From Actinomycetota bacterium (lineage in GTDB: Bacteria; Actinomycetota; CADDZG01; JAHWKV01; JAOPZY01): DNA of 64,000 nt. Positions within the stretch are counted from its first letter, which is position 1. Every line of letters starts with the position of its first letter. Made by a program: the position numbers and the translations under genes. The notes beneath the pieces were generated by a model. It did not search any database, had not been told where the DNA came from, and saw only the letters and a program-made list of their open reading frames with translations. Below are positions 3,769-35,430 of this stretch, in pieces. Location: positions 1 through 64,000 of the forward strand of contig DASTWV010000021.1 in NCBI GenBank assembly GCA_035765775.1. Reading direction: 5' to 3'.

Positions 3769-4674
3769 TCAGGAGGGCGATCCGGCGGGCTTCTCGAGGA
3801 CCAGGCAGATCGAGGTGAACACCGACCGGGAGACCCGCAGGAGCACGTGCGGGTGCACCGAGCCGCTGGCCGGCTCCAGGCGCCCCCCGGCGTGCACCGT
3901 GGTCACGTTCTCCCAGGACGCGGGCGAGATGGTCCGGTCCACCCGCTGTGCCAGGCGCAGCCCGGACGGGGCCACGACGCGCTCGACCAGCTCGTGGAGG
4001 GTGAACGCCTCGCCCAGAGCGACCCGCTGGCGGGGGTGGGCGCCCGCCCGCCGGCGCCCGAAGGTGGCCAGCCGGATGGCGGTCTCGGCCGCCGCTGAGT
4101 CCAGCGGGTGGCGCCGGACGAGGCATTCGGTCACCACCACCGCCAGGCCGCCCGGGGCGAGGACCCGGCCCATCTCGGCCGCCGAGCGGGCGATCTCGGC
4201 GGCGGCACCGAAGTGCTCGATGGACGAGAGCGAGTACACCACGTCGAAGGTGGCCTCGGCGAAGTCCAGCGTGCGGGCATCCATTCGGCGCACGAGCAGG
4301 CGCTCGTGGGGGTACGCCACCGGTGCGAAGGCGGAAGGGTTGTGCAGCATCGATTCTGCCGCCTCAAGGCCGGAGAACTTGCCTTCGCCGTAGATGTCGG
4401 TGGCGACTACCCTTCCAGCCCGATTCGCAAGCCAAAACAGCACCGGCTCGCTGCCCGCTCCGATGGCGAGGACGGAGCAGTTGGGCCCCAGCCGCCCACT
4501 CTCGGTGAGCACGCCGGCGAGCATTGCGCGCTCCCACTGCTTGCGCTCCACGAGCGCTTGGGGCGGCGAGTCTCGGCCGTCCCGGCCCTCGATCTCGGCG
4601 GCGAGGCGGCAGAGCACAGGGTCGGCGAAGTCGGCGACGTCGCACAGCTTCACCCATTGCCGGGACCAGCTCAC
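3769..4674 (-). CDS. SAM-dependent class I methyltransferase
   Basis: A 301-residue protein. Motif I reads CSVLAIGAGSEPVLFWLAN near residues 62-80, followed by VVATDIYGEG (acidic end of beta2), FDVVYSLSSIEHFG (motif for beta4) and LAPGGLAVVVTE. These are hallmarks of Methyltransf_11-type enzymes. The start GTG (4672-4674) overlaps the stop of the upstream membrane glycosyltransferase as GTGA, so translation is likely coupled. It is the last gene of the wzm-wzt-GT-C unit, which suggests it methylates the exported glycan or an intermediate. The substrate cannot be inferred further. Confidence 0.88.
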   Translation of the reverse strand: MSWSRQWVKLCDVADFADPVLCRLAAEIEGRDGRDSPPQALVERKQWERAMLAGVLTESGRLGPNCSVLAIGAGSEPVLFWLANRAGRVVATDIYGEGKFSGLEAAESMLHNPSAFAPVAYPHERLLVRRMDARTLDFAEATFDVVYSLSSIEHFGAAAEIARSAAEMGRVLAPGGLAVVVTECLVRRHPLDSAAAETAIRLATFGRRRAGAHPRQRVALGEAFTLHELVERVVAPSGLRLAQRVDRTISPASWENVTTVHAGGRLEPASGSVHPHVLLRVSRSVFTSICLVLEKPAGSPS

Positions 4675-6293
4675 GGCGTCCAGTCGAACCCCACCGACCC
4701 GGGCAGGATCCGCCCGGCGGGGAGGACCACCGTGTAGGGACCCCGGCTGTGCACCGCGATGGGCATCCCGAGCCGGGCCGCCGCCTGCTCGAAGCTCCGC
4801 AGGGTGGCCGACTTCGTGACGAACAGGTACGCCGGATGCGGGCTGGCGGCCACCGCGGCGTCCAGGCTGGGGCTGCGCGACGCCCACGTGGGGGCGACCA
4901 GCACCGACTCCCCGGTCTCGAAGGTGGTGCGGTAGGCCAGCCAGTAGTCGGCGTAGGCGTCCTGCACCCGGTAGTCGGTGAGCATCTGGCGCAGCGGGGC
5001 GATGCTGGCCGTGACGTGGACGTCCGGGCTGTTGGGCGCCGACAGGCCCGAGGAGGCCATCGCCACCAGGCCCCCGGCGGTGAGGGCGGCGGCGAGCACC
5101 ATCCCGGGGAGCCCGAACCGGCGCCGGGCAAGGCCGGCGGCGGCCACCACCGCCACGACGGGCGACAGGAAGAGCAGGTACCGGGGGTGGTCCACGTACC
5201 ACGACAGCGGCGACGTGGCGAACAGGAAGGGGTAGGCCACCGCCGCCAGCCCGAGCAAGAGCAGGCGCCGCTGCCCCCGCCGGGCGGCGCCCAGCCCGAG
5301 GCAGGCGCCCAGCCCGGCCAGCGTGGCGCCGTAGCCGCACACCCCCACGGGGCCGAGCACCCAGGCCTTGGTGTAGGGCACCCTCCACCCGAGCGCCATC
5401 GGGAGGGCGGTGGTGAAGAAGGCGCCCAGCCGGCGGCCGTAGGTGCCCGCCACCCTCGGCTGGTGCGGGAAGCGCAGCGACGCCCAGTGGTGCACCAGGT
5501 TGAAGCCGATCCAGGGTGCGGCGCCCACACACGCCGTGGTCCCGAGGAGCGGCAGGTAGCCCGCCCGCCGGCCGAGGGCGGGCGCGAACCAGATATAGGC
5601 CGGGAGGAGCAGGTACAGCGACTGGGGGTTCGCCCACCAGGCGAGCCCGGTGGCCAGGCCGAGGGCCGCGAACTCCAGGGTCTCCCGGGTGTCGTCCAGC
5701 GGCGCTTCCTCCCGGACCCGGTCGGCCAGCCGGCAGAGCAGGAGCACGGCCGCCAGGGTGCAGCACAGCGCCGCCCAGTACACGCCTGCCTTGGTGGACC
5801 ACCACACGAAGGCGGGGGGCCAGGCCCAGAACAGAGCCCCGGCGTAGCGCCCGGCGGCCGGGCCGACCAGGCGCCGCCCGATCCGCCAGGTCAGCACCGC
5901 GGCGAGGCCCGAGAGGGCCAGGGGCACCGCCTTCAGGACCAGCGGCGAGCTGTGCACGAAAAGGAACAGCCCGGCGGCGCCGATCGCCTCCACGATCCCG
6001 CCGTAGTTCTGGCCCCAGAACAGCACCGGGAAGCGTGCCGCCCCGTGCCAGGCGGTGCCGTGGGCGAGGTGGCGGGCGATGAGGCCCACCACCGCCTCAT
6101 CGGAGTCGAGCGCCCCGAGCGAGGAGTGCAGGACCGCGACCCGGGTGACGGCACCGAACAGGACCGCCGCCAGCACCACTGCCCGGTCGCCGACCCGGAG
6201 GCGGGACCGGAAATGCTCGGGGCGGGACGGGCCCGCGGGGCGGGCGGGGCTCGCCGTCTGGGGTGTGGCCAGGTCGGGCGGCGAGAGGCTCAG
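4671..6293 (-). CDS. GT-C fold membrane glycosyltransferase (ArnT/PMT-like)
   Basis: A protein of about 540 residues with many hydrophobic helices. The first external loop carries the acidic motif LGALDSDEAVVGLIARHL, typical of polyprenyl-phosphate-sugar dependent GT-C enzymes, which add sugars on the outer face of the membrane. FWGQNYGGIVEA follows, as in actinobacterial members. The start is unusual: CTG at 6291-6293 overlaps the wzt stop as CTGA. The next standard in-frame start, GTG 6177-6179, lies inside the first membrane helix and would give 502 residues. Upstream standard starts would have to lie well inside wzt. The gene is coupled to wzt and the methyltransferase, so it probably modifies the same exported polymer. 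Confidence 0.85.
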   Translation of the reverse strand: MSLSPPDLATPQTASPARPAGPSRPEHFRSRLRVGDRAVVLAAVLFGAVTRVAVLHSSLGALDSDEAVVGLIARHLAHGTAWHGAARFPVLFWGQNYGGIVEAIGAAGLFLFVHSSPLVLKAVPLALSGLAAVLTWRIGRRLVGPAAGRYAGALFWAWPPAFVWWSTKAGVYWAALCCTLAAVLLLCRLADRVREEAPLDDTRETLEFAALGLATGLAWWANPQSLYLLLPAYIWFAPALGRRAGYLPLLGTTACVGAAPWIGFNLVHHWASLRFPHQPRVAGTYGRRLGAFFTTALPMALGWRVPYTKAWVLGPVGVCGYGATLAGLGACLGLGAARRGQRRLLLLGLAAVAYPFLFATSPLSWYVDHPRYLLFLSPVVAVVAAAGLARRRFGLPGMVLAAALTAGGLVAMASSGLSAPNSPDVHVTASIAPLRQMLTDYRVQDAYADYWLAYRTTFETGESVLVAPTWASRSPSLDAAVAASPHPAYLFVTKSATLRSFEQAAARLGMPIAVHSRGPYTVVLPAGRILPGSVGFDWTP

Positions 6294-13205: not shown

Positions 13206-13535
13206 ATGACCGCAAAACAGCGCCTGGCGACCGCCGCCCGGCCCGCCCGCACCGTCTTCCGCAAGGAGGTGGGTCTTGCGGTCAATGAAGCGGTCGGGGA
13301 GGCCCAGAGCACCGTCGCGTCGGAGCTGGCCGACCTCCGGCGCATCCTCTCCGACGACATGGACGCCGCCAACGAGACCACCGCAGTCTTCGGGCGGCTG
13401 CTGGCCCGGCTGGGCGACCGCCTGGACGCCATCGATGCCCGCCTCGCCACCATCGACGCCCGCCTGGACGCACGGGACGCACGGGACGCGCGGGATTCAG
13501 GGGACGCGCGCGGGCCATCCACCGCTGACCGCTGA
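13206..13535 (+). CDS. Small coiled-coil protein, first gene of GT operon
   Basis: A 109-residue protein with ATG 13206 and the ribosome binding site GAGGGAGGG 6-7 nt upstream. It is almost entirely helical. A heptad pattern runs through residues ~45-85 (LADLRRILSDDMDAANETTA, then LLARLGDRLDAIDARLATID), and the tail has short DAR/DARDS repeats. There is no membrane segment or signal peptide. The stop overlaps the start of the next glycosyltransferase, suggesting translational coupling and perhaps a physical partnership. I recognise no named family. It fits a set of small helical proteins encoded immediately before glycosyltransferases in this window (also 18395, 23526). Confidence 0.75.
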   Translation: MTAKQRLATAARPARTVFRKEVGLAVNEAVGEAQSTVASELADLRRILSDDMDAANETTAVFGRLLARLGDRLDAIDARLATIDARLDARDARDARDSGDARGPSTADR

Positions 13536-15973
13536 GGCCGCTCCTGGCCGCTGACCGGCCCGTCCTGATCGATATCCAGGCGGTCCAGAACCCGGAGTAC
13601 GCCGAGCGCGGCGTCGCCCGGCACACCGCCGAGTTCGCCCGGGCTTTGTGCCGGGTCCGGCCCGACCTGGTGGGCGGGCTGCTGCTCAACCCGGACCTGC
13701 CGGCACCGCAGGGCGTCGACGACCTGGTGGCCGCCGGCCGGGTGCGGGTGGCCACCGGCGCCGACTGGGCGGCGTGCCGGGTCTACCACGTCATCGCCCC
13801 CTTCGAGCTGGAGCAGCCCCTCGAGCGGATCTGGCCGGGAGCCGCCTCCCGGGGACGGGCCCGCCTGGTGGTCACGCTGCACGACCTGATCCCCCGGGTG
13901 TTCCCGGAGCACTACCACTCGAACCCGGGCCTGCGGCGCCGCTACCTGGCCCGGGAGGAGCTGGTGCGGGCAGCGGACCGGGTGCTGTCGGTGTCCCGGA
14001 CGACACGCTCGGAGGCCATCGACCGCCTCGGGATCGAACCGGACCGGATCACGGTGATCGGGGCCGGGGTCGGGGAAACGTTCCGCCCGCCCGCCTCCAC
14101 CGAGGCCGCCTGGGCCCGCGCCCGGGGGGGTGTCGGCCGCCTGCAGCCCGGCTTCCTCCTGTCGGTGGGAGGGCCGGACCACCGCAAGAACCTCGAGGGG
14201 CTACTGGCCGCCTACGCCCTGCTCCCCCAGGAGCTGCGCAGCGCCCACCAGCTGGTGATCGCGTGCCGCCTGAGCGACGAGGGCCGCGCCCGGTTGCAGC
14301 GCCTGGCGGCCCACATGGGCATCGGCCCCCGGGTGCTGCTCACCGGCTACGTGGACGACGACGCCCTGGTGGCGCTCTACCAGGCCGCCGCGCTGTTCGT
14401 GTTCCCCTCGCTCTACGAGGGCTACGGACTGCCGGTGGCCGAGGCGATGGCATGCGGCACGCCGGTGGTGGCCTCGTCCACCTCGGGCCTCGGGGAGATC
14501 ACCCCGGAGGCCGGGCAGTTCGACCCCTCGACGCCGACGGCGATCGCCGCCGCCATCCGCCGGGCGCTCACCGAACCCGGGACCGCCCGGGCCCTGGCGG
14601 CCGCGGTTGCCGCCCCAAGGCCCACGTGGGATGCGGCGGCACTCGCTGCGGTCGGGGTCTACGAGGAGCTTCTCGCCGGCCCGGCGCCCGCCCGCCGGCG
14701 CACGCTGCGGGTGGGGTTCGTCACCCCGCTGCCCCCGCAGCGCAGCGGTGTGGCCGTGTACAACGGGCGCCTGCTGGAAGCCCTGGCGGCGGTGCCCGCG
14801 CCCCCGGCCGAGCCCATCCTCGAGGTCGACCTGTTCCTGGACAACCTGGAGGGCCACACCCCCACCGCGGCGGTGGCGGCGCCCCCCGCCATGGCGGTCC
14901 ACCCGGTCGCCCAGCGGGTGCCGGTCGAGGCCGCCCGCGGGGGCTACGACGTCTGGGTCTACACCGTGGGCAACTCCGAGTACCACACCGGCGCCCTGGG
15001 GGCCGCCCGGGAACGCCCCGGCGTGGTGCTGGCCCACGACGTCGCCGCCGCCCAGCTCTACGCCTTCGCCGCCCACCACGGCGTGCTCGGGCCCGGGGCG
15101 GCCTTTGCCGAGGTCCTGCGGACCTGGTACCCGGAACGGGCCGAGCTCTCCGTCTGGCCCGACCCGCTCCTCGTTGCCCCGCAACGCTTCGCGGCCTTCC
15201 CGGTGCCCATGGCCCGGGAACTGATCGCCGGTTCCATCGCCTACCTGGCGACTTCGAAGTTCGCCGCCGACCTGGCCCGGCTCGATGCCGCGGCCGGGGG
15301 CATCGACGCGGACCGCATCGGGGTCCTGGTCCACGCCTGCCGGGTGCTGGCGCCCCACCCGCCCGCACGCGGTGGGCCCCTGATCGTCAGCTTCGGGGTG
15401 GTGAACGACGCCAAGGACACCGCCACCCTGATCGAGGCCTTCGCCCTGCTGGCCCCCGACCAGCCCGATGCCCGCCTGGTGTTCGTCGGTCACGGGTCGG
15501 CGACCGACCTCGAGGGCGTCACCCGCCGGGCGGCTGCCGCCGGCGTGGGCGGGCGGGTCACCGCCACCGGGGGCGTGGACGCGGCCACCTGGGACGGCTA
15601 CCTCGCCCGGGCCACCGTCGCGGTCCAGCTCCGGCGGGCGACCCAGGGCGAGTTCTCCGGCGCAGTGGCAGAGGCGCTTGCGGCGGGAGTCCCGACCGTG
15701 GTCACCGGCGTGGGGGCGGCGGGCGACCTCCCCGACGCCGCCGTGGTCAAGGTGCCGGCCCACGCCGCACCCGCCGCGGTGGCCGTCGCCCTGGGGAACC
15801 TGCTCGACGATCCGGCGGCGCTCGAGGCCCGCAGCGCCGCCGCCCGGGCGTGGGCCCTCACCCGGACCTTCCCCATGGTGGCGGCCGAGCTGGCCACCGG
15901 GATCCGCCGGGCGGCGGCGCCCGCCGGGGAGCCGTGGCACCATTTCCCTACCCTGGCGGGACGGACGACATGA
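13532..15973 (+). CDS. Bifunctional glycosyltransferase, two GT4 units
   Basis: About 813 residues with two complete GT-B units. Unit 1 (~1-385) opens with PVLIDIQAVQNPEYAERGVA and carries the donor motif LYEGYGLPVAEAMACG; it is a close paralogue of the enzyme at 17175. Unit 2 (~388-813) starts with LRVGFVTPLPPQRSGVAVYN and ends with another donor domain (LIVSFGVVNDAKD, EALAAGVPTVVTG). One chain could therefore add two successive sugars. The start must be upstream of TTG 13646, which would delete the conserved first strand. An in-frame TGA at 13526 leaves only CTG 13532 (CTGA overlap with the previous stop) or CTG 13544. The end overlaps the next gene as ATGA. Confidence 0.88.
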   Translation: MRPLLAADRPVLIDIQAVQNPEYAERGVARHTAEFARALCRVRPDLVGGLLLNPDLPAPQGVDDLVAAGRVRVATGADWAACRVYHVIAPFELEQPLERIWPGAASRGRARLVVTLHDLIPRVFPEHYHSNPGLRRRYLAREELVRAADRVLSVSRTTRSEAIDRLGIEPDRITVIGAGVGETFRPPASTEAAWARARGGVGRLQPGFLLSVGGPDHRKNLEGLLAAYALLPQELRSAHQLVIACRLSDEGRARLQRLAAHMGIGPRVLLTGYVDDDALVALYQAAALFVFPSLYEGYGLPVAEAMACGTPVVASSTSGLGEITPEAGQFDPSTPTAIAAAIRRALTEPGTARALAAAVAAPRPTWDAAALAAVGVYEELLAGPAPARRRTLRVGFVTPLPPQRSGVAVYNGRLLEALAAVPAPPAEPILEVDLFLDNLEGHTPTAAVAAPPAMAVHPVAQRVPVEAARGGYDVWVYTVGNSEYHTGALGAARERPGVVLAHDVAAAQLYAFAAHHGVLGPGAAFAEVLRTWYPERAELSVWPDPLLVAPQRFAAFPVPMARELIAGSIAYLATSKFAADLARLDAAAGGIDADRIGVLVHACRVLAPHPPARGGPLIVSFGVVNDAKDTATLIEAFALLAPDQPDARLVFVGHGSATDLEGVTRRAAAAGVGGRVTATGGVDAATWDGYLARATVAVQLRRATQGEFSGAVAEALAAGVPTVVTGVGAAGDLPDAAVVKVPAHAAPAAVAVALGNLLDDPAALEARSAAARAWALTRTFPMVAAELATGIRRAAAPAGEPWHHFPTLAGRTT

Positions 15974-23495: not shown

Positions 23496-23501
23496 TAGAC
23501 T
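23496..23501 (+). promoter_or_regulatory. -10 box of the 23526 operon
   Basis: TAGACT lies 24 nt before ATG 23526, leaving room for the ribosome binding site GAGGAGGG at 23509-23516. No clear -35 was seen. Confidence 0.35.
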
Positions 23502-23525
23502 TTCCCCCGAGGAGGGCAGCGAGAG

Positions 23526-23939
23526 ATGGCGAGCCCCGAGGGCGGTGCAATTGATTATGAGGCGGTGGTGGAGCGCGCCCGGCGGGCGGCGGCGGCCAAA
23601 CGGGCGAGCGGGGAGGTGCCCGACGGCACCGGGGCGGCCCTGGACCGCCTCTTCGGCGAGGTGGCTCCCGGCGGCGCCCGGATGTCGGGCGACGGGCTGG
23701 AGGCGGTGGTCGAGATGCTCGGCCGGTACCACTTCGACCCGGCCATCCCGGTGCAGTCCCCGCCCGGCTGGCGGGGCCGGCTGACCGGGCTGGTGAAGCA
23801 GGCCCTGCAGCCCATCACCGCCTGGCAGCTCCGCCACCTCACCGACCAGCTCAACGCCTACCACCTGGCCGAGATCGAGCTGCTCCGGCGCCTGGTCGAC
23901 GAGCGGGAGGGCGCAGGGCCGGCCTCGCCGGAGTCCTGA
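23526..23939 (+). CDS. Small helical protein preceding a GT4 gene
   Basis: A 137-residue protein, ATG 23526 with GAGGAGGG nearby. Residues 85-130 (GWRGRLTGLVKQALQPITAW, then QLRHLTDQLNAYHLAEIELL) form a basic-aromatic amphipathic helix followed by a helical end. This corresponds to the layout in the proteins at 353 and 18395 and to N-terminal parts of some actinobacterial glycan methyltransferases. The N-terminal half is charged and helical (VVERARRAAAAKRASGE). There is no catalytic domain. The stop codon overlaps the CTG from which the next glycosyltransferase appears to start. A role as partner of that enzyme is inferred from the arrangement only. Confidence 0.75.
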   Translation: MASPEGGAIDYEAVVERARRAAAAKRASGEVPDGTGAALDRLFGEVAPGGARMSGDGLEAVVEMLGRYHFDPAIPVQSPPGWRGRLTGLVKQALQPITAWQLRHLTDQLNAYHLAEIELLRRLVDEREGAGPASPES

Positions 23940-25003
23940 GCACCTCGCCGCGGCGGGTCTTCCAGCTCGTCGCCTTCCTGGAGGCCGACGACGCCATCGG
24001 CGAGCACGCCCGCCAGCTGGCGCGGGCACTCGGCGATGGCCACGCCGGGTACCTCGTGGAGCGGGCGGCCCCGGTTTTCGCCGGCGAGGCCCGGCACTAC
24101 ACCGAGGCTGCCGTGCGTCCGGACGACGTCCTCGTCTATCACGCCGCCCACGCCTCGGCGCTGGGGGAGTGGCTGGCCGGGGTGGAGGCGGTCAAGGTCA
24201 TCGACTACCACGGCATCACGCCGCCCGAGTTCCTGCGGGCCTGGCAGCCGGGCCTGGCGGTGGCGCTGGCGCGGGGGCGGGCCGAGCTGGCGGCACTCGG
24301 GCCCGGTACCGCCCTGGGGGTCGCCCACTCCGAGTTCACCCGGCGGGAGCTGGTGGCGATGGGGTTCCGGGACACCGCCGCCCTGCCGATCCTCATGGAT
24401 GCCCACCGGCTCGCCGCTGCCCCGGACCCGGTCCTGCTCGACACCCTGGCCGCCGGGAACCGGGGCCACGACTGGCTCTTCGTCTCCCGCCTGGCGCCCA
24501 ACAAGCGGGTGGAGGACCTCATCAAGGCGTTCTGTGTCTACCGCCGGGCCTGGTGCCCGGCTGCCCGCCTGTTCGTGGTCGGGCGTCCGGACATCCCGCG
24601 CTACGCCCGGGCGCTCGAGCTGTTCGTCGAGCGGCTCGGGATCGAGGAGGTACACCTGATGGGGTCGGTGCCCGTCGACGACCTGGCGGCGTACTACGCC
24701 ACCGCCGACGTGTTCGTCTGCCTGAGCGAGCACGAGGGCTTCGGCGTGCCATGCCTGGAGGCGATGTCGTGCGGCGTGCCGGTCGTGGCGTTCGCCGCCG
24801 GCGGGCTCCCGGAAACGGTGGGCGACGGGGCGGTCGTGATCGCCGACAAGGCCCCCGAGCAGGTGGCCGCGGTGGTGGGCGAGGTTCTGGGCGACCCCGA
24901 CCTGCGCGCCCGGCTGGCGGCTGCCGGCCGGGGCCGGCTCGCCGTGTTCGCCCCGGACATCGTGGGCAGGGCCTGGGTCGAGCTCCTGGGGGGCCTCGGG
25001 TGA
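23936..25003 (+). CDS. GT4-family glycosyltransferase, apparent CTG start
   Basis: About 355 residues. The conserved start of this subfamily (VFQLVAFLEADDAIGEHARQ, compare AVHQFLPTFADRDAIGGHVL at 18874) lies before the first standard start codon, GTG 24056. Between 23936 and 24056 there is no ATG, GTG or TTG. CTG 23936-23938 overlaps the previous TGA as CTGA and gives a natural N-terminus of seven residues before the first strand. The donor domain is intact: WLFVSRLAPNKRVEDLIKAF and SEHEGFGVPCLEAMSCGVPV. The 3' end overlaps the next gene as GTGA. If only GTG 24056 is used, the enzyme would lack its first strand. Confidence 0.88.
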   Translation: MSTSPRRVFQLVAFLEADDAIGEHARQLARALGDGHAGYLVERAAPVFAGEARHYTEAAVRPDDVLVYHAAHASALGEWLAGVEAVKVIDYHGITPPEFLRAWQPGLAVALARGRAELAALGPGTALGVAHSEFTRRELVAMGFRDTAALPILMDAHRLAAAPDPVLLDTLAAGNRGHDWLFVSRLAPNKRVEDLIKAFCVYRRAWCPAARLFVVGRPDIPRYARALELFVERLGIEEVHLMGSVPVDDLAAYYATADVFVCLSEHEGFGVPCLEAMSCGVPVVAFAAGGLPETVGDGAVVIADKAPEQVAAVVGEVLGDPDLRARLAAAGRGRLAVFAPDIVGRAWVELLGGLG

Positions 25004-32925: not shown

Positions 32926-33597
32926 TTGAAGATTTTCGTGGATTCGGCCAATCTTGCCGACATCGAGGCCGCACTCGCCCGCGGGTTCGCCTCGGGCGTG
33001 ACCACGAACCCGTCCATCCTCGCCAAGGAAGAGAAGCGGGATTACCGTGAGCACATCCGCGACATCATCGACCTGATCCGCAAATGGGGTCCCCCGCTGC
33101 CCCTGTCGGTGGAGGTGTTCACCACTGATCCGGACGAGATGATCCGGCAGGCCGAGGAGCTGGTGTCCCAGTTCGGCGACTATCCCGGTCTTACCATTAA
33201 GGTGCCTGTGGGGTGGGACGAGCTGCGGCTCATTGCCCGCCTTACCGACGAGAACATCGCAGTCAACGCCACTGCGTGCATGTCTTTCAATCAAGCAGTG
33301 ATGGCATTGAACGCCGGGGCGCGGTATGTGAGCTTGTTCTGGGGCCGGATCCGGGACACGGGCTACGACGCCGGCCGGATCGTCGCCGACGTGCGCGCCG
33401 GTATGGACCGCATCGGCACGTCGGCAGAGATCATCGTGGGTTCTATCCGCCACATCATGGATGTCAACGAGGCCATGCAGGCGGGTGCCCACATCGTGAC
33501 CGTGCCCAGCGCCTTTCTCGTCAAGATGTGTCAGCACCCCAAGACCGACGAGGTGGTGGCGCAGTTCTGCACCGACTTCGCCCGCTGGATGACCTAA
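32926..33597 (+). CDS. Transaldolase/fructose-6-phosphate aldolase family (TalC-like)
   Basis: A 223-residue class I aldolase, the short TalC size. It starts at TTG 32926. IFVDSANL (Asp6) and GVTTNPSIL are the classic family motifs, and the Schiff-base lysine is Lys92 in GLTIKVPVGWDEL. The C-terminal segment AHIVTVPSAFLVKM is also typical. Most short members are either transaldolases or sugar-phosphate aldolases. In this operon a transaldolase could produce sedoheptulose 7-phosphate, the substrate of GmhA, so the gene may feed the heptose pathway; this is inference. It stands 49 nt after gmhB and 1 nt before the next coding frame. Confidence 0.88.
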   Translation: MKIFVDSANLADIEAALARGFASGVTTNPSILAKEEKRDYREHIRDIIDLIRKWGPPLPLSVEVFTTDPDEMIRQAEELVSQFGDYPGLTIKVPVGWDELRLIARLTDENIAVNATACMSFNQAVMALNAGARYVSLFWGRIRDTGYDAGRIVADVRAGMDRIGTSAEIIVGSIRHIMDVNEAMQAGAHIVTVPSAFLVKMCQHPKTDEVVAQFCTDFARWMT

Positions 33598-33598
33598 G

Positions 33599-34471
33599 CT
33601 GCCTGCGCCCAACCTTGAGGGTCGGGTCTGCGTTGTCACCGGCGCCGGCCGGGGGATCGGTCGGTTCACGGCCGAAACCTTCGCTCGACACGGTGCCGAT
33701 GTGGCCATCTGCGCCCGCACGCGGTCCGAACTCTCCTCAGTTGCGGATGCCCTTGGCGCCGAAGTGGGCCGCCCGGTGCTGTCCCGGGTGGTCGATGTCG
33801 CCGACGAGGGCTCGGTACAGGAATTCGGCGCCGCGGTGACGGCTGAGTTCGGGCCGGCCGACGTGCTGGTGACCAGCGCCGGAGTGCAGGGGCCCGTCGG
33901 CAGCGTGGTCGACATCGACATGGCGGCGTGGACGGGAACTCTCGCGGTCAACCTGCTCGGCGTGGTGCATGCCATCCGCGCATTCGTGCCCGGGATGCGT
34001 ACGGCCGGCGGCGGGCGCATTGTCACCCTGTCCGGTGGAGGCGTGGGTGGCCCGGGGGTGGCCCCCCGGCTCAGCGCATACACCGCATCGAAAGCTGCGG
34101 TCGTCGGTCTGACCGAGACGCTGGCGCGGGAGCTTGCCCCGGACCGCATCTGGATCAATGCCCTGGCTCCAGGAGCGATCAATACCAGCTTTGTGGACCC
34201 GGTCCTTGCCGCCGGGCCAGAAGTGGCCGGGGAAGCGCTCTACCAGTCGACCATGCGCCAGCGTCAGGGAGGCGACTCCCTTGAGAAGGTGGGTGCTGCG
34301 ATGCTGTTCCTGGCCTCAGAGGCGTCGGATGGCCTGACCGGCAAGCTCATCAGCGCCAAGTGGGATCCTCTCGACGTCATGTCTGCCCAGGCCGAGCAAC
34401 TCAACACGGGATCCCGCTACACCCTTCGCCGGATCGACGGCGAGCTCTTCGCTGAAGGGCCCGGTTCGTGA
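33599..34471 (+). CDS. SDR-family oxidoreductase, apparent CTG start
   Basis: A 290-residue short-chain dehydrogenase. The cofactor motif TGAGRGIG is at 14-21, NLLGVV near 115-120, a Ser on the strand with TLSGGG, and Tyr161-x3-Lys165 in SAYTASKAAVVG. The first standard start in frame, GTG 33701, lies after the cofactor motif and would destroy the Rossmann fold. An in-frame TGA at 33590 closes the frame upstream. The only sensible start is CTG 33599, giving MPAPNLEGRVCVVTGAGRGI. It probably oxidises or reduces a sugar or sugar nucleotide in this operon. The 3' end overlaps the epimerase start as GTGA. Confidence 0.87.
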   Translation: MPAPNLEGRVCVVTGAGRGIGRFTAETFARHGADVAICARTRSELSSVADALGAEVGRPVLSRVVDVADEGSVQEFGAAVTAEFGPADVLVTSAGVQGPVGSVVDIDMAAWTGTLAVNLLGVVHAIRAFVPGMRTAGGGRIVTLSGGGVGGPGVAPRLSAYTASKAAVVGLTETLARELAPDRIWINALAPGAINTSFVDPVLAAGPEVAGEALYQSTMRQRQGGDSLEKVGAAMLFLASEASDGLTGKLISAKWDPLDVMSAQAEQLNTGSRYTLRRIDGELFAEGPGS

Positions 34472-35430
34472 GAGTGGTCGTGACCGGGGCCGCGGGGTTC
34501 ATCGGTTCCAACTTGACCGATGCTCTCTTGGCCGCGGGCCATACGGTGCTCGGGATCGACAACCTCTCCACCGGCGACGAGCGGTTCCTCGAGGACGCCA
34601 CCCGGAATGCCGCATTCGAACTCCGGAAGCTCGACCTGCTCGAGGACGGCGCGGCGCTCCCCGACGCCTTCGCCGGGGCCGACGCCGTGGTCCACCTCGC
34701 CGCCAACGCCGATGTGCGCTTCGGCTGGCACATGCCGGACCAGGACTTGAAGCAGAACACCATCGTCACCCATCAAGTCCTGGAGGGCGTCCGCCGGGGC
34801 GGCGTCCCTCGGTTCCTGTTTTCATCGACCGGATCCGTCTACGGCGAGGCGGCCGTCGTGCCGACCCCAGAGGACTGCCCCTTCCCTGTGCAGACCTCGC
34901 TGTACGGAGCGTCGAAGCTCGCCGGGGAGGGTCTGGCGGCGGCATATGTTGAAGGGTGCGGGATCACGGCGACTGTCTTCCGCTTTGTATCGATCCTCGG
35001 CCCCCGCTACACCCATGGGCATGTGGTCGACTTCGTGCGCCAGCTACGGGCCGATCCCACCTCGCTCACGATCCTGGGGGACGGGCGGCAGCGGAAGAGC
35101 TACCTCGACGTGTCGGACTGCGCCCGCGCGGTCACCAGCATGCTGGGCCGCATCGGTGCCTTCGAGGTCTACAACCTCGGGGTACCAGAGTCCTGCACCG
35201 TCGACCAATCTGCGGGCTGGATCTGCGAGCGAATGGGGGTCAAGCCCACAGTCATCCACACGGGCGGGGATCGGGGCTGGATCGGCGACAATCCCCACAT
35301 CCACCTGGCCATTGAGAAGATGCGGGCGACGGGTTGGCAACCGCACTACGGCATCCGGGCGGCCGTGGAGCGGACTGTCGACTACCTCGCCGAGCACACC
35401 TGGATCGTCGAACGCGAGGTTCGGCGGTGA
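34468..35430 (+). CDS. NAD-dependent epimerase/dehydratase
   Basis: A 320-residue extended SDR. GTG 34468 begins VRVVVTGAAGFIGSN with the GxxGxxG motif at 7-13. VVHLAANADVRFGWHMPDQD, FSSTGSVYGE and Tyr146-x3-Lys150 (SLYGASK) complete the active site. YLDVSDCARAV is the usual C-terminal family motif. The family acts on nucleotide sugars (4-epimerases, 4,6-dehydratases, 3,5-epimerases). Next to GDP-heptose genes the likely substrate is GDP-D-glycero-D-manno-heptose, but the specific reaction cannot be read from sequence. Both ends overlap neighbouring genes by 4 bp. Confidence 0.9.
   Translation: MRVVVTGAAGFIGSNLTDALLAAGHTVLGIDNLSTGDERFLEDATRNAAFELRKLDLLEDGAALPDAFAGADAVVHLAANADVRFGWHMPDQDLKQNTIVTHQVLEGVRRGGVPRFLFSSTGSVYGEAAVVPTPEDCPFPVQTSLYGASKLAGEGLAAAYVEGCGITATVFRFVSILGPRYTHGHVVDFVRQLRADPTSLTILGDGRQRKSYLDVSDCARAVTSMLGRIGAFEVYNLGVPESCTVDQSAGWICERMGVKPTVIHTGGDRGWIGDNPHIHLAIEKMRATGWQPHYGIRAAVERTVDYLAEHTWIVEREVRR

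Follow-up and report, generated by a model that had tools for sequence, protein, structure and literature searches.

The window examined here, a stretch of 64,000 nucleotides that forms the beginning (positions 1 to 64,000) of contig C21 of a 3.6-Mb draft genome of an Actinomycetota bacterium (62 contigs, G+C content about 71%, 96% complete; G000 below), carries a gene for a short-chain dehydrogenase/reductase (SDR) between a transaldolase-family gene and a gene for an NAD-dependent epimerase (Table 1). The encoded protein has both a TGxxxGxG cofactor motif and a match to the Pfam profile adh_short, which identifies it as an SDR. The frame reads TGA (33590-92) CCT AAG CTG (33599) CCT GCG CCC AAC CTT GAG GGT CGG GTC TGC GTT GTC ACC (33638) GGC GCC GGC CGG GGG ATC GGT, and it contains no ATG, GTG or TTG ahead of the GTG at 33701, i.e. 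none before the Rossmann motif. Only one nucleotide separates the stop codon of the transaldolase gene from the CTG, and the Shine-Dalgarno sequence is weak (GGATGA). An earlier, sequence-only reading of the window had proposed CTG 33599 as the sole plausible initiator of this frame, and the positions of the closing TGA, the motif and the first canonical start on which it was based all proved to be right.

Table 1. Coordinates of the SDR locus and of the other genes in the window for which a CTG start had been proposed
Feature	Position	Strand	Remarks
SDR-family dehydrogenase gene	33599..34471 (stop included)	+	start CTG 33599-33601; frame opens at 33593
In-frame TGA closing the SDR frame upstream	33590..33592	+	read from the sequence
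Cofactor motif TGAGRGIG	33638..33661	+	upstream of the first canonical start
First canonical start of the SDR frame, GTG	33701..33703	+	use would remove the cofactor motif
Transaldolase-family gene, upstream of SDR	32926..33597	+	Pfam TAL_FSA, 149 bits; stop TAA 33595-33597
NAD-dependent epimerase gene, downstream of SDR	34468..35430	+	Pfam Epimerase; GTG start in 4-nt overlap (GTGA)
Family-4 glycosyltransferase gene	13532..15973	+	CTG in CTGA overlap; first canonical start TTG 13646
Gene upstream of 13532	13206..13535	+	stop TGA is part of CTGA; G001 ortholog 67% identical
Family-4 glycosyltransferase gene	23936..25003	+	CTG in CTGA overlap; first canonical start GTG 24056
Open frame upstream of 23936 (stop to stop)	23499..23939	+	stop TGA is part of CTGA; G001 ortholog 70% identical
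Putative membrane glycosyltransferase gene	4671..6293	-	CTG 6293 claimed; GTG 6179 usable; not supported as CTG gene

When the SDR is translated from the CTG, the adh_short match begins at residue 10 and at profile position 2 (158 bits); from GTG 33701 it begins at profile position 28 (120 bits), with a loss of 27 positions. A protein that starts at this GTG, without the first strand and the cofactor loop, would make use of the first canonical start and would still match most of the domain. Nevertheless, it would lack TGAGRGIG. The family has just one further genome, G001 (read in part), and the ortholog there retains this region and begins ahead of it, with 30 aligned columns (22 identical) upstream of GTG 33701, so that we regard such a shortened protein as highly improbable. 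The G001 ortholog is 62% identical and opens with ATG TCC CTC GCC GGT AAA GTC TGT GTC GTC ACC (MSLAGKVCVVTG), its ATG aligning three residues inside the CTG start. As the ATG of the ortholog falls so close to the CTG residue, this N-terminal stretch does belong to the SDR; the alignment with a homologue that had been suggested as a check thus places the start of the ortholog before the Rossmann motif and near the CTG residue. The CTG itself is not conserved in this column, which is compatible with an exchange of the codon and provides no independent proof. A search of the genome contigs yielded no named close relatives of the SDR. Taken on the sequence data, a start of the SDR gene at CTG 33599, as the only plausible initiator, is well supported.

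The position of the gene allows yet another explanation, in which transaldolase and SDR are fused through a +1 frameshift at ACC TAA G. The SDR frame indeed lies +1 to that of the transaldolase and opens just before its stop, and G000 uses a classical +1 shift in prfB. The site offers no slippery sequence, however (re-pairing from ACC to CCT would be poor), and in G001, where the gene directly upstream is a different one, that gene stands between transaldolase and SDR and the SDR has its own ATG. We therefore give very little credit to a fusion and retain separate initiation at the CTG.

The SDR gene had been presented as one of four genes in the window with the same arrangement, the other three having their CTG within a CTGA overlap with the upstream frame. 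For the two family-4 glycosyltransferase genes this interpretation stands. The 13532 frame opens with CCG CTG, and TTG 13646 falls after the conserved stretch VLIDIQAVQNPEYAERGVARHT; the G001 ortholog (64% identity over 377 amino acids) likewise has only CTG, without a canonical start. In the G001 ortholog of the 23936 gene (63% identity) an in-frame TAG is followed by four codons and then by CTG ACC CGG ATC TTC CAG, where the CTG again is part of CTGA. For both genes, the CTG is thus kept in an ortholog from another genus and a canonical start is absent in both genomes. ATG-bearing paralogues of the window glycosyltransferases, among them one of the 13532 gene, begin at about the same residue as the CTG-started proteins. 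The gene at 6293 had to be rejected as a CTG gene: GTG 6179 is usable 38 codons downstream, nothing is conserved before it, and the stretch between the two codons is rich in proline and alanine, matches no Pfam family and has almost no coding score. The statement that there are four cases in 64 kb was consequently too strong, as three hold and one fails, and the window is richer in such genes than the rest of the genome. The CTGA overlaps are present at all three other genes, but they are not special: a C precedes TGA at 153 of 250 background gene ends in G000 (61%). We did not accept the overlap as evidence in itself, because a C usually precedes TGA and a CTGA at a junction carries little weight; it is the absence of a canonical start that counts.

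How often CTG is used was estimated from 856 kb of G000, in which a self-trained coding model delineated 751 genes. This sample puts the number of CTG-initiated genes at 5 to 8 (about 0.7-1.1%), an estimate made partly by hand. Coding signal or homology clearly extends before any canonical start in trpF, a Tat-signal amidase gene, ftcD, folC, a hydantoinase-like gene and the three window genes. The coding-model scan also recovered two known recodings that served as internal controls, i.e. an in-frame TGA at the selenocysteine position of selD (C32, minus strand, about 8400; SHGAG-U-ACKLGPSD; ARAGORN reports a tRNA-Sec in the genome) and the classical +1 frameshift site CTT TGA C of prfB (C59, minus strand, about 395150). 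A genome-wide reciprocal-best-hit comparison of G000 with G001 gave 160 pairs, among which the clear cases were limited to the three window genes and the rest was noise; the other candidates were missed because they lack an ortholog in the part of G001 that was covered. When the codons at Shine-Dalgarno spacing were counted blindly, CTG was neither enriched nor among the top codons, and in a second count it made up 7 of 80, which its overall frequency would account for. Such an outcome is expected if only about 1% of the genes are concerned, and the case thus rests on individual genes and on their conservation.

Among these individual genes, trpF (C59, minus strand, 44860) has its CTG in a CTGA overlap. 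Its start reads ACG CTG ACC in G000 and ACG CTG AAC in G001, without a canonical start in either genome, and the same column holds ATG, ATG, ATG and GTG in four relatives from the order. With a start at the following canonical codon, the protein would lose the KICG strand, in which this family has its catalytic cysteine. Other genes have a CTG that is led by a Shine-Dalgarno sequence. Those that are CTG-only include the Tat-signal amidase gene of G000 (C21, plus strand, 90788; GGAGG, 7 nt, CTG) and the gene at L114:13670 (GGAGGA, 6 nt, CTG). Related genes of this kind encode, in G001, a LivH permease and a methyltransferase and, in G005, a carbamoyltransferase and a protein kinase. In a Streptomyces-like genome (G044, region e, minus strand, 83957 and 83352; L161) we observed two tandem paralogues with the N-termini STRSVIARPT and STRAVIARPT, both following a CTG without a nearby canonical start. 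G044 belongs to the phylum, and for one of its proteins the sole match among the plasmids searched is in a Streptomyces plasmid.

Several genes appear to start with other non-canonical codons. The infC gene starts with ATC in G000 and G001 and with ATA in G005 and G007 (L216, L217, L222, L224). In folC (G000, C32, minus strand, 49813; L065) no ATG, GTG or TTG precedes the N-terminus and the likely start is an ATA in an ATAG overlap, with AGGAG as Shine-Dalgarno sequence. The hydantoinase-like (hyuA-like) gene (G000, C59, minus strand, 300361, and G001; L195) has no canonical start and a conserved GTA that overlaps the upstream stop (GTAG/GTAA); as a CTG gene it is ambiguous, since the GTA is conserved instead. 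For ftcD, without a canonical start, the candidate codons are CTG CTG or ATC, and dnaA of G005 (C3, plus strand, about 47180; L134) apparently has no ATG, GTG or TTG before the conserved N-terminus, an ATA being the candidate. The overlapping ATA of folC and the overlapping GTA of the hyuA-like gene in two genomes, together with the several CTGA cases in such a phase, could point to a general, mild relaxation in which any NTG or NTA that overlaps a stop is usable and CTG is the commonest only because a C usually precedes TGA. This would leave out the Shine-Dalgarno-led CTG genes as well as the SDR gene (1 nt after TAA), and the assignments of ATA and GTA are based on few genes. Such a relaxation is possible although we think it rather unlikely, and it would refine more than exclude the use of CTG as a start codon proposed here.

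The strongest case was found in rpsR, which encodes the ribosomal protein bS18. In all eight genomes of the order that were examined (two families, five genera; L259, L254-L258, L260 and L261) the gene has an AGGAGG Shine-Dalgarno sequence followed by 6 nt and a CTG, which precedes the N-terminal residues (G/P/A)R(R/K)D that are conserved in bS18. Downstream, no canonical start occurs until 36-63 codons into the frame, which encodes about 92 amino acids. No usable canonical start is found nearby in G000, G001, G005 and G007: G005 has an in-frame TAA directly before the CTG, and the other three lack any canonical start over at least 37 upstream codons. Where an ATG, TTG or GTG does occur 5-10 codons upstream, namely in G002, G003, G004 and G006, it lies before the Shine-Dalgarno sequence. 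The gene thus combines a Shine-Dalgarno sequence at normal spacing, a CTG conserved in the lineage and the absence of usable canonical alternatives, and CTG is the apparent start of this essential ribosomal protein gene in 8/8 genomes. In both G000 and G005 this CTG lies within the preceding frame, presumably that of ssb as judged from gene order, with an overlap of the final 11 nt. A pattern scan of the 16 genomes of the class outside the order yielded none with the CTG arrangement, the lone match (G010) having an ATG two codons on, and the rpsR starts read in seven of these genomes are ATG, GTG or TTG; a search across the phylum with a shorter N-terminal spacing gave 0/397, for a pattern used without a positive control for canonical starts. 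We found no title or abstract in the literature that reports a CTG start of rpsR.

The conservation of CTG also bears on the simplest doubt about the SDR gene, i.e. that a sequencing or assembly error has turned an A, G or T at 33599 into a C or that an indel hides another start. Most of the assemblies are drafts, this genome with its 62 contigs among them; a single wrong base would be enough, and the G001 SDR gene does have an ATG. Such errors would nevertheless have to recur independently, as homologous CTG codons are present in separately assembled genomes for the two glycosyltransferase genes, trpF and rpsR (8/8), and we consider an error improbable. The suggestion that this uncultured lineage uses CTG regularly is well supported, for the most part by evidence beyond the observations from which it was drawn: two window genes and trpF keep their CTG in G001, and rpsR has one in all eight genomes.

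The initiator tRNA and IF3 look normal. The tRNA has a CAT anticodon and the GGG/CCC stem (three G-C pairs), both unchanged, and IF3 is present and normal, which dismisses a loss of IF3 as the cause. Similarly, no initiator-like tRNA with a CAG anticodon was present among the 40 tRNAs read (a family search found 44), and a dedicated initiator tRNA for CTG was discarded on this basis. Base 1 of the initiator tRNA varies (L226-L237): G000 and G001 have a G opposite A72, and some relatives have a C or T there. This variation showed no link with the use of CTG. We propose that translation of the SDR begins at CUG 33599, with fMet brought in by the normal initiator tRNA. A ribosome or 30S subunit that terminates at the stop of the transaldolase gene would probably restart one nucleotide further on, and this translational coupling could offset the weak start codon and the weak Shine-Dalgarno sequence. 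The CTG genes would then fall into two classes. In the first (the SDR gene, the two window glycosyltransferase genes and trpF) termination would be followed by reinitiation at the stop/start junction, with the ribosome already in place; in the second (the amidase gene of G000, the LivH permease gene of G001, the carbamoyltransferase gene of G005 and above all rpsR) a strong Shine-Dalgarno sequence would hold the 30S subunit. We put the probability that the SDR gene is CUG-initiated in this way, as one of a small set in the lineage that divides into these two classes, at roughly 0.8. The use of CTG as a start is strongly supported by the sequence comparisons; the insertion of fMet at this codon, and its efficiency, are what we infer from them. 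A more speculative suggestion, which we hold to be less probable than its contrary by a wide measure, is that the whole order has come to discriminate less against CUG (and against ATA and GTA at overlaps) and that CUG has been retained on rpsR because it functions as a start, perhaps one that senses fidelity or dosage, similar to the weak infC start.

CUG is a minor start codon in bacteria, listed in NCBI translation table 11 and seen in isolated cases. What the present genes share with these is CUG decoded by a normal initiator tRNA, as we suppose it to be here; elsewhere such starts are rare and scattered, whereas here they concern about 1% of the sampled genes, several are kept between genera and one is order-wide. 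In Deinococcus deserti, non-canonical starts were reportedly found by proteomics. A second parallel is infC of E. coli, encoding IF3, which has the non-canonical start AUU. Like infC, rpsR is a universally present gene of the translation apparatus that has retained a weak start, but it differs by its CTG and strong Shine-Dalgarno sequence, and autoregulation is not known for rpsR. Of about 69,000 starts in an evolutionary reconstruction, only 4 had changed to CUG (PMC5622118), and CUG initiation complexes were found to be unstable in E. coli (PMC11497404). In leadered initiation in Mycobacterium smegmatis, likewise a high-GC bacterium, a rare codon (ATT) is accepted, but CTG was not functional in the reporter selection (0.03%) (PMC4633059). 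The junctions described here also resemble those of termination-reinitiation at NTGA overlaps, with a 4-nt overlap or 1-nt gap and a weak or absent Shine-Dalgarno sequence; as far as the portions of the two reports at hand go, these describe ATG or NTG in general, and a CTG or CUG start appears in neither (PMC6728339, PMC12548453). Because CUG is rare, gives unstable complexes and failed in the mycobacterial reporter, the order-wide CTG of rpsR stands out.

Standard gene finders accept only ATG, GTG and TTG. They would shorten or lose about one gene in a hundred in this lineage, and rpsR would be mis-annotated or seem defective in every member of the order. To our knowledge, CUG has been regarded as nearly unusable for initiation in bacteria. 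An essential gene for a ribosomal protein that apparently relies on it throughout an order, with a maximal Shine-Dalgarno sequence, would be a natural system in which to study how the ribosome discriminates against a C at the first position, and it would allow one to ask whether weak starts are retained for regulation.
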